A DNA stretch of 64,000 nucleotides from Pyrinomonadaceae bacterium. GTDB lineage: Bacteria; Acidobacteriota; Blastocatellia; Pyrinomonadales; Pyrinomonadaceae. The notes below the pieces were generated by a model. The model saw only the letters and a program-made list of their open reading frames with translations. It had not been told where the DNA came from and did not search any database. This document shows positions 12,681 to 17,677 of this stretch, one piece after another. The stretch spans positions 213,581-277,580 of the forward strand of contig JAJQRF010000003.1 of NCBI GenBank assembly GCA_021228405.1, read 5' to 3'. Position 1 is the stretch's first letter. Every line of letters begins with the position of its first letter. The position numbers and the translations under genes were made by a program.

Positions 12681-12763
12681 TCAAACCGCAGATTGCGCAG
12701 ATAACCGCAAATTTATTTTTATTTGATTTTATCTGCGTTTATCCGCGTCCGTCTGCGGTTAAT
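12681..12763. repeat. Solo 83-bp CGCAGAT-type palindromic element
   Basis: Two arms face each other (left ACCGCAGATTGCGCAGATAA, right TTATCCGCGTCCGTCTGCGG) and consist of degenerate 10-bp units. The same arms border the GxxExxY cassette at 16245-16774. The right arm extends into the 3' end of the neighbouring flavoprotein gene and supplies its stop codon. Confidence 0.75.
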
Positions 12764-15130: not shown

Positions 15131-16222
15131 TTAAACCGATTTCGCTTTCCGCAAATCTATCGCGCGTCCGTATTGTTTCGGCACATAGCGCAAATTTTCG
15201 CCCAGTTCCTTCGCCGCCGTGAACGGGAAATAAGGATCGCGCAAAAATTCGCGGGCGATCAGAACCGCGTCGGCTTGTGTATTTTGCAAAATTTCTTCGG
15301 CTTGCTTTGCTTCCGTAATCATTCCGACCGCACCTGTTGCGATGCCCGCTTGTTTCCGAATTTCCGCCGCGAACGAAACCTGATAATTCGGCGCAACGGG
15401 AATTTCCACCTCCAAAACATTGCCGCCCGTCGAAACGTCGATCAGATCGATTCCGATTTTCTTTAATTCTTTGCAGAGTTCAATTGACTGTTCCAAATCC
15501 CAACCGTTTTCCGTCCAATCCGTCGCCGAAATTCTCACGAAAACAGGCAGACTTTCGGGAACAATTTCGCGAACTTTCTTTGAAACATCGAGCAGTAAAC
15601 GCATCCGATTTTCCAAACTTCCGCCGTATTCATCCGTTCGTTTATTCGAGATCGGCGAAAGAAATTCGTGAAAAAGATAACCGTGTGCGGCGTGAATCTC
15701 GATGACTTCAAAACCCGCTTCAACCGCCCGGTTTGCCGCCGCAACAAAATCGTTTTCGACTTTTTCGATGTCTGTTTTTGTCATTTCGCGCGGTATCGGA
15801 TAATCGTCCGCAAAAGCGATTGCCGAGGGCGCAACCGTTTCCCAACCGCCGTTGTTTTCTTCAACTTTTTTCCCGCCGTGCCAAGGTTCAGCCGTCGAAG
15901 CCTTGCGTCCGGCATGGGCGAGTTGAATTCCCGCAACCGCGCCGTTTTCTTTAATGAATTTCGTGATTTTCTTGTAAGCTCCGGCGTGTGCGTCCGACCA
16001 AATTCCCGCGTCCGACGGCGAAATCCTGCCTTCGGGCGAAACGGCGGTCGCTTCCTGAATTATCAATCCCGCACCGCCCACCGCACGGCTTCCGAGATGA
16101 ACCAGATGCCAATCCGTCGGCATTCCGTCTTCGCTCGAATATTGGCACATCGGCGAAACCCAGATGCGGTTGCGAAATTCGACACTGCGAATTTTGTATT
16201 TTTCAAATAATTTACTGTCCAT
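15131..16222 (-). CDS. Old Yellow Enzyme (YqjM/NamA-type NADPH dehydrogenase)
   Basis: A 363-residue FMN-dependent ene-reductase. It opens with LFEKYKIRSVEFRNRIWVSPMCQYS; the Cys of MCQYS tunes the flavin in the YqjM class. Substrate-binding His are in EIHAAHGYLFHEFLSP, and KRTDEYGGSLENRMR and LIAREFLRDPYF are family signatures. It reduces alpha,beta-unsaturated carbonyls and nitro compounds. The GxxExxY cassette lies 22 bases upstream, so its leader or promoter must lie in, or be interrupted by, repeat DNA. Confidence 0.95.
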   Translation of the reverse strand: MDSKLFEKYKIRSVEFRNRIWVSPMCQYSSEDGMPTDWHLVHLGSRAVGGAGLIIQEATAVSPEGRISPSDAGIWSDAHAGAYKKITKFIKENGAVAGIQLAHAGRKASTAEPWHGGKKVEENNGGWETVAPSAIAFADDYPIPREMTKTDIEKVENDFVAAANRAVEAGFEVIEIHAAHGYLFHEFLSPISNKRTDEYGGSLENRMRLLLDVSKKVREIVPESLPVFVRISATDWTENGWDLEQSIELCKELKKIGIDLIDVSTGGNVLEVEIPVAPNYQVSFAAEIRKQAGIATGAVGMITEAKQAEEILQNTQADAVLIAREFLRDPYFPFTAAKELGENLRYVPKQYGRAIDLRKAKSV

Positions 16223-16244
16223 TAACTTCCCTTTTCATTTCAAT

Positions 16245-16774
16245 TAACCGCAGATAGACACAGATAAACGCAGATTTTTTAAATTATCTTTTTAATTTGC
16301 GTCTATCTGTGCAAATCTGCGTTTAATTTACCTTAAAAATATTTCTCAAATTTACCGACTGAAAAACTCTTTTCACCTCAACACGCGGTTTGCCGAAATT
16401 TATCAGCAAACACAAAGGCAAATTCGTCGCCTTCAAATAATTCAAGCATTGCGCCAGATATATTTCGTCAATTCCTTTGACCGCTTTCAATTCGACTATA
16501 ACTTTATTTTCAACCAATAAATCAGCAATATATTCACCGACCACGCGATTTTTATAGTAAACACTTATCGGATGCTGCTGTTTTACATCCAAATTCTTTT
16601 CGATCAATTCAAAAGCCAACGCGTTTTCATAAACTTTTTCTAAAAAACCGTTTCCAAGCGTGTTTCCAACCGCATATGAACAGCCGATAATTGTTTCACT
16701 AATTTTATTAGGTTCGTCTTCACTCATAAAAAATCAAAAAATCATCTGTGTTCATCCGCGTAAATCTGCGGTTA
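16245..16774. mobile_element. Putative 530-bp GxxExxY cassette with terminal inverted repeats
   Basis: Both ends read inward as TTAACCGCAGAT, a perfect 12-bp terminal inverted repeat, with weaker similarity continuing beyond. The left end is a full 82-bp palindrome (16245-16326; arms match at about 27 of 33 positions) and the right end is a single arm (16737-16774). The only gene inside is GxxExxY. The flanking genes stop 6 bases and start 22 bases away, so removing the cassette would leave a normal 28-base intercistronic gap. No target duplication is evident. Confidence 0.6.
16323..16727 (-). CDS. GxxExxY protein (PD-(D/E)XK-like)
   Basis: A 134-residue protein with the family signature GNGFLEKVYENAL (G-x2-E-x2-Y). 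The segment YIADLLVENKVIVELKAV places Asp and E-x-K as in PD-(D/E)XK nuclease folds, followed by the typical YLAQCLNYLKAT and LLINFGKP. The biochemical role of the family is not established; nuclease activity is an inference from the fold. The gene is the only one inside the repeat-bounded unit at 16245-16774, and the upstream arm ends about 10 bases before the ATG, so the repeat may carry its expression signals. Confidence 0.9.
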   Translation of the reverse strand: MSEDEPNKISETIIGCSYAVGNTLGNGFLEKVYENALAFELIEKNLDVKQQHPISVYYKNRVVGEYIADLLVENKVIVELKAVKGIDEIYLAQCLNYLKATNLPLCLLINFGKPRVEVKRVFQSVNLRNIFKVN

Positions 16775-16780
16775 ATTTTC

Positions 16781-17677
16781 CTACGTCATCTGCTTCCAGT
16801 CTTTGCCCGCGACTTCGTTCCATCTTTCACGAATCCCTTCAAATTCTTCCGCCGAAAGTTTGCCTTCGGCGACATATCCCGCGTTTTCCTGCCAGCGGTT
16901 CGGCTTGGTCGTGCCGACGATCATCGTGTCGATGCCGTCGATCGAAAGCGTGAATCTTAAAGCCGTCGCGGTCGCTTCTTCCATCGATTTTTCGAGAAAT
17001 CCGTATTTCAATTTTTGGATGCGATGCCAGTATTCGTGATGATACGAATCGGGCGGCAATTCTTTGTTGCGCCAGACGGCATTGGCAATCGGGCGTTTGG
17101 CGATAACGCCCAAATCCTTTTCTTTCGCAAATTTGATAACGCCGTCGATCGGCGACTGGTCGGCGAGCGAAACGGAAGTTTGCAGACTGTCGAAAACGTC
17201 TAATTCGATCGCGTATTTTGCATCGTCGTTATCGCCCGAATAGCCGATGAACCGCGTGTAGCCTTTTTCCTGCGCGCGTTGCAAGCCTTCGATGCAATCG
17301 CCCTGACGCAGAATTTCCGCCGAGCAACTGTGCAGTTGTGCGATGTCGAGATGATCCGTTTTCAAATTTCGCAGACTGTTTTCGATCGTTTCCAAAATTC
17401 CTTTTTTCGACCAGTCTTCGCGCGTAAAAGCATCGAGCGCGCCGCATTTCGTCAGTAAATAAAATTCTTTTCGTCTGCGTCCGACGGCTTTGCCGATCAA
17501 CATTTCCGAAGTTTTATAAGCCGCCGCCGTGTCGATCACGTTCAAGCCCGCATCGAGCGCGGAATTTAGCAATTCTTCAACGATTTGCTCATCTTTGCCG
17601 TCCCAACCGATTTCCGCGCCGCCGAAGCCGAGCACCGAAAATTCCATATCCGTTTTGCCGAATTTTCTCTTTTCCAT
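16781..17677 (-). CDS. Aldo/keto reductase
   Basis: A 298-residue TIM-barrel NADPH-dependent carbonyl reductase. The catalytic set is visible as DTAAAYKTSEMLIGKAV (Asp, Tyr), LLTKCGA (Lys) and DIAQLHSCS (His), near residues 49-120. FIGYSGDN and RFTLSIDGIDTMIVGTTKPN are typical of the bacterial branch related to oxidoreductases that act on aldehydes. It is encoded upstream of the GxxExxY cassette, and before that insertion it probably neighboured the Old Yellow Enzyme gene directly. Confidence 0.93.
   Translation of the reverse strand: MEKRKFGKTDMEFSVLGFGGAEIGWDGKDEQIVEELLNSALDAGLNVIDTAAAYKTSEMLIGKAVGRRRKEFYLLTKCGALDAFTREDWSKKGILETIENSLRNLKTDHLDIAQLHSCSAEILRQGDCIEGLQRAQEKGYTRFIGYSGDNDDAKYAIELDVFDSLQTSVSLADQSPIDGVIKFAKEKDLGVIAKRPIANAVWRNKELPPDSYHHEYWHRIQKLKYGFLEKSMEEATATALRFTLSIDGIDTMIVGTTKPNRWQENAGYVAEGKLSAEEFEGIRERWNEVAGKDWKQMT

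Follow-up and report, generated by a model that had tools for sequence, protein, structure and literature searches.

MITEs and DNA transposons with subterminal repeat arrays are short units whose inverted ends are built of repeated sites. RAYT proteins (TnpA-REP) are tyrosine transposases thought to spread or maintain REP/REPIN elements (PMC3116915). The intervening sequences (IVS) located within 23S rRNA carry an ORF of the S23/four-helix-bundle type and have been described as selfish, and mobility has been proposed for them earlier (PMC4990558). In the literature outside subscription journals, we found no role for GxxExxY proteins, which appear there only as an annotated neighbour of a CRISPR-like reverse transcriptase. 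The arm sequences described below are undiscussed in the same literature, where matches are confined to unrelated papers, in one of them within a PCR primer.

We analyzed a window of 64,000 nucleotides from a Pyrinomonadaceae bacterium (contig JAJQRF010000003.1), in which an initial annotation had noticed a GxxExxY gene packaged as a 530-bp unit at 16245-16774 with perfect 12-bp inverted termini. The unit is present, with its ends shifted by one base to 16244 and 16775 and a length of 532 bp (Table 1). The termini are as described: TTAACCGCAGAT at 16244-16255 is matched by its reverse complement at 16764-16775, and the perfect match extends to 14 bp if the flanking AA/TT are counted (AATTAACCGCAGAT). 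Between the flanking genes, which are co-directional (both on the minus strand), excision of 16244-16775 leaves 26 bases, the gap of 28 bases given previously being correct for a 530-bp excision. The unit is asymmetric, with a full palindrome at the left and a single arm at the right, each arm comprising three iterated CRCAGAT-type units with a 10-bp period. Its sole ORF (16323-16727, minus strand) is the GxxExxY gene with the Asp...E-x-K core, as had been noted, and its stop codon is part of the left palindrome. The left terminus is indeed palindromic and of the same class as the gene-less element at 12681-12763; the folding of both (16244-16326 and 12681-12763) far exceeds that of shuffled sequences, with z from -6.3 to -8.7. 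In the genome, TTAACCGCAGAT occurs 14 times vs. 0 for the reversed pattern, and two-unit CGCAGAT-type arrays have 82 matches vs. 4 for the reversed pattern; hence, the arm sequence and the arrays are not due to chance.

Table 1. Features of the GxxExxY unit and its surroundings (positions in the window)
Feature	Position	Strand	Comment
Complete GxxExxY unit	16244..16775	.	Inverted arms at both ends; absent from the orthologous junction in G019
Left outer arm	16244..16275	+	TTAACCGCAGAT AGA CACAGAT AAA CGCAGAT; three 7-bp units, 10-bp period
Inner inverted arm closing the left palindrome (16244-16326)	16294..16326	-	Contains the GxxExxY stop codon
GxxExxY gene	16323..16727	-	134 aa; predicted Cas4/RecB-like PD-(D/E)XK; D69, E79, K81, Q93, Y97
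Right outer arm	16744..16775	-	ATCTGTG TTC ATCCGCG TAA ATCTGCGGTTAA
Gene-less palindrome (solo element), unit class as in the window arms	12681..12763	.	Separate intergenic gap
Flanking redox gene, old yellow enzyme-like (by eye)	15131..16222	-	Adjoins the 16781..17677 orthologue in G019 without the unit
Flanking gene, aldo/keto reductase-like (by eye)	16781..17677	-	Adjoins the 15131..16222 orthologue in G019 without the unit

For each gene, we aligned 300 bases on its left with the reverse complement of 300 bases on its right, applying a score threshold of at least 34. GxxExxY genes are present in 41 of 60 related genomes. The threshold was reached by 83% of the 84 loci in these relatives vs. 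5% for flanks paired across different loci, and, in the controls, inverted arms were observed at 2.1% of 143 neighbouring genes and at none of 29 ParE toxin genes. Overall, arms flank 83-89% of the GxxExxY orthologues in the relatives, about 10-17% being without clear arms; about half of eight plasmid-borne homologues have weak arms or none. A 7-bp unit, e.g., CGCAGAT, CACAGAG, or ACGGAA, occurs three or four times in each arm, mostly at a period of 8-11 bp. The mismatch between both arms of one element is 5.7% in units and 14.6% in spacers, a split favoured by the fact that the unit pattern defines the positions. Two further GxxExxY genes of the window's genome also have inverted arms, with different units (CACGAAT-like at L010 and CGCAAAA/CACAAAA-like at L011). 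Judging by sequence, the GxxExxY family occurs in many bacteria and some archaea, mostly between mirrored arrays of a short DNA word.

The more identical two proteins are, the more similar are their arms (Mantel test, Spearman 0.48 for 2193 cross-genome pairs, 0 of 1000 permutations). On a quick tree of 92 proteins, built from few columns, the final base of the unit (G, A or T) requires 7 changes vs. 36.8 with shuffled labels (minimum 30), and unit positions 4-5 change 19 times vs. 37. Each GxxExxY protein clade has its own unit. The initial annotation proposed testing the orthologues for CGCAGAT-type arms; arms are there, but the unit differs by protein clade. At one gene junction in four genera, both arms carry CGCGAAA (L112), CGCGGAA (L120, L125), or CACGAAT (L010), and at an aspS-like site the arms are CGCGAAT (L121) or CGCGAAA (L132), that is, arms at one common site differ in concert, both sides alike. 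The cross-phylum scan relied on a close alignment, a 17-sequence one being too diverse, and the resulting set therefore represents mainly the window's clade (GFLEKVY), with 80 loci in named genomes from many phyla and archaea. In most of these loci, CRC[ACG]GAT units recur every 10 bp, and the clade retains CRCRGAT-like units in archaea and in over ten phyla. The unit class was found in Planctomycetota, cyanobacteria, Treponema, Pedobacter, Acetobacteraceae, deltaproteobacterial lineages, and Methanosarcinales. The swapped-pair control is high in this set, because the unit is common to its loci.

Gene-less arrays were counted in the same genomes. CGCAGAT arrays have a median of 8 in the 41 genomes with any GxxExxY gene vs. 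1 in the 19 genomes without it (p = 1e-5, with no correction for relatedness). An ACGGAA-type gene is present in four genomes (in G037 as a broken copy), which have 289, 226, 190, and 46 matches to ACGGAA arrays, and the other 56 genomes have 90 (G045), 25 (G038), and 0-1 (the remaining 54) matches; the association of the array with the matching gene yields Fisher p = 3e-5, again with no relatedness correction. There are 7-33 CGCGAA arrays in five genomes with such genes and mostly 0-3 elsewhere (p = 1e-4, similarly uncorrected), and G016, with 39 of these arrays, has a broken gene beside a CGCGAA-type arm. As array matches overlap, the palindromes are fewer than the matches. Gene-less arrays are abundant mainly where a matching gene exists, and the dependence of element number on the gene, proposed in the initial annotation, holds with exceptions. 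These include G031, where 28 CGCAGAT arrays were found and no GxxExxY gene, and G045, where no gene with a unit matching its 90 ACGGAA arrays was detected.

Twelve dispersed palindromes of G049 share the arm GAGATTACGGAACAGACGGAAATAACGGAACAGACGGAA with the arms of the resident gene, at 35-39 of 39 bases. In these dispersed arms, the first two to three units hardly vary, the innermost one is decayed, and the loops are unrelated, which means that the arm is what is kept. The unrelated loops are not accounted for by plain copying of whole palindromes. In G049 and G041 alike, the solo palindromes (L351-L368) have arms near-identical between dispersed copies and unrelated loops. Rfam yielded only sub-threshold microRNA-like matches.

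The window protein belongs to the GxxExxY family, as its scores exceed the curated cut-offs of both TIGR04256 (E = 1.2e-42, 144.9 bits vs. 35) and PF13366 PDDEXK_3 (E = 4.3e-41, 140.4 bits vs. 22). Its core is Asp69...Glu79-x-Lys81. Across 74 proteins, G25, G27, E30, Y33, D69, and K81 are invariant, E79 is retained in at least 90%, and Q93 and Y97 are nearly invariant, yielding the motif D...ExK...QxxxY. The AlphaFold model (pLDDT 92) has a predicted PD-(D/E)XK fold, and the nearest structure is Cas4 SSO0001 (4ic1; Z 10.3, rmsd 3.2 over 98 residues); a sequence search for relatives with solved structures produced no clear one. By its motif and the restriction-endonuclease-like fold of the model, GxxExxY is a predicted RecB/Cas4-like PD-(D/E)XK nuclease. 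Cas4 profiles match it weakly. Cas4 proper was rejected, as the four cysteines that bind the Fe-S cluster are absent from the invariant and nearly invariant columns of the 74 sequences. In four GxxExxY pairs, those with unsaturated dS, dN/dS is 0.04-0.14, and hence the protein is under selection. Gene copies inside one genome are mostly less than 62% identical; therefore, the gene itself rarely amplifies. No match to GxxExxY was found in phage records or in PHROGs, nor did PADLOC match the window protein; one virus-derived contig had a GxxExxY match.

The empty sites anticipated by the initial annotation were found both for the window copy and for others. In G019, orthologues of both flanking genes adjoin without the unit, and the units of L048 and L123 are absent from the matching junctions in G032. 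Given the compact, repeat-bounded unit, such junctions are most simply read as empty sites, a polarity that we infer. They are ∼70-80% identical to the filled ones, and no target-site duplication is readable at that divergence. The archaeal L202 and Brocadiaceae L230 share 82% identity in a 402-bp stretch that covers the unit, and no match beyond this length was reported. Among archaeal units L202, L224, L212, and L200 and Brocadiaceae L230, DNA identity is 71-82% over about 400 bp.

Several other loci illustrate the genomic context. In Sphingomonas parapaucimobilis, the unit lies between fabD and fabG, and the units of L048, L077, and L258, which come from different genera and a further phylum, are at seemingly the same sufS-sufD type junctions. 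The same 270-bp segment flanks the unit on its right side in L186 and on its left side in L195, as if there had been two insertions or a local move. The unit of L047 (around 1230-1900) lies between two copies, ∼100 bp each, of the start of a hydantoinase-like gene; these are too diverged to be called a target duplication.

The S23/four-helix-bundle genes, with 12 copies in the window's genome (G000), are located outside rRNA at the loci considered here (L134-L182). Scores of at least 34 were obtained for 81% of 42 S23 loci vs. 2%. Their arms have a 7-bp period in most cases, with AGTTTCA, CAGTGGG, AGTCTGG, and other units, and the unit tracks the S23 protein, more weakly than in GxxExxY (Spearman 0.27, 0 of 1000 permutations). 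These loci appear to form a second system with the same arm-gene-arm plan and with unit classes different from those of GxxExxY.

The initial annotation suggested that GxxExxY may be the mobility or maintenance partner of the palindromes, and this is the best-supported reading: arms flank the orthologues, empty sites exist, and element number follows the gene, the reverse of the three outcomes named there as speaking against it. We consider it rather probable that the unit represents a minimal element of selfish or mobile DNA, whose nuclease recognises its own arms and mobilises or maintains solo derivatives in trans. One gene, encoding a predicted Cas4/RecB-like PD-(D/E)XK nuclease, is enclosed by inverted short-unit arrays; the nuclease of each clade would recognise and bind its own unit array in DNA and cut at or near the arms, and the cutting would spread or restore arms and gene-bearing units. 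The solo palindromes would be non-autonomous derivatives mobilised or maintained by the nuclease in trans, the closest working model being RAYT transposases acting on REPINs. Binding, cutting, and the resulting spread are steps that we infer from sequence, rather than observe. Support is provided by the linkage of gene and arms, the clade-specific units and their concert, the empty sites, the bare unit common to two domains, the coupling of solos to genes, and the selection on the protein. Against this reading are the rare amplification of the gene, the array-rich G031 and G045, the fraction of genes without clear arms, the unrelated loops among near-identical solo arms, and the weakly armed or armless half of the plasmid homologues.

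Instead, the arms could be operators and terminators of the GxxExxY gene, the protein binding them to regulate itself and the solos being unrelated decoys or relics with no mobility. The same coupling of protein and unit would then be expected, and units located between co-directional genes do follow the direction of the host operon (60 vs. 3 in the relatives and 32 vs. 5 in the wider set; for comparison, 33 vs. 1 for S23 and 9 vs. 4 for ParE; strands were taken from the longest ORFs, and single cases may be wrong). Still, self-regulation leaves unexplained the 46-289 solo matches per genome that resemble the arm of the resident gene, the bare unit common to an archaeon and a planctomycete, and the matched arms at both sides of the gene, and we regard it as unlikely. 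The sense orientation within operons would also agree with an RNA-level element, whose arms pair in the operon transcript and which is excised by RNase III, as are the 23S rRNA intervening sequences (PMC4990558); this precedent and the strong predicted hairpin are in its favour. However, pairing does not require iterated units, and the arms have no G-U preference, as 162 arm-to-arm transitions are G-U-compatible vs. 165 that are not (three sets pooled), so that excision at the RNA level seems highly unlikely.

GxxExxY could also be a passenger, with another enzyme moving the palindromes and the gene carried between them. The persistence of solo arrays in G031 and G045, where no matching gene was detected, and the S23 genes inside similar arms are consistent with this. 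On the other hand, a passenger would not follow the unit sequence across phyla and archaea, and the GxxExxY and S23 families have different unit classes; we thus consider a passenger role quite unlikely. Finally, the likeness of the arms might be due solely to template-switch correction of palindromes, with no role in recognition. The private variants of the solos point in both directions: in G041, with spacers included, 27 are common to both arms vs. 13 in one arm, as such correction would have it, whereas in G049 they are mostly in one arm (25 vs. 6 in both). As it explains neither the unit following the protein tree nor the one arm common to dispersed copies, this account is very improbable.

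GxxExxY is a widespread family, and the link to arms supplies it with a testable substrate, explains a group of dispersed palindromes, and makes available natural protein-DNA pairs for working out the recognition code. The GxxExxY arm system has a fair chance of being a new class of its own. Tentatively, there may be a broader new class of minimal selfish DNA, in which one small protein lies between inverted arrays of its own recognition word, protein and word co-diverge, solo arrays spread in trans, and whole units cross between bacteria and archaea; it would include at least two unrelated proteins, GxxExxY and S23, with different word classes. If the mobile-element reading is true, the REPIN idea would extend to another class of enzymes. 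The S23 genes, with their matching anatomy, are relevant to the nature of IVS elements.

Similar to MITEs and DNA transposons, the window unit has terminal inverted repeats; unlike DNA transposons, it has no transposase found inside. GxxExxY shares the predicted fold and the D...ExK...QxxxY motif with Cas4/RecB-type nucleases and, unlike Cas4, lacks conserved Fe-S cysteines; neither a CRISPR nor a helicase context was noted in the surroundings of the gene. The likeness to IVS, which are units of about 430 bp, lies in one small ORF between complementary termini. However, the window unit is intergenic, rather than within 23S rRNA, and its GxxExxY ORF is unrelated to S23, for which reasons an IVS/S23 element was rejected; the S23 genes outside rRNA have arms of iterated units as well, and the period there is a strict 7 bp. 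Unlike RAYT, an HUH/Y1 tyrosine transposase, GxxExxY has a predicted PD-(D/E)XK fold, and its arms, unlike REPINs, are formed by three or four iterated 7-bp units bounding the gene itself. Because the enzyme class differs, the GxxExxY system is not a member of RAYT-REPIN. As in RAYT-REPIN, there are dispersed gene-less palindromes, often of two arms and a loop, which are tied to a gene of matching specificity, are placed between genes, persist for long, and vary in both sequence and number with the resident gene.
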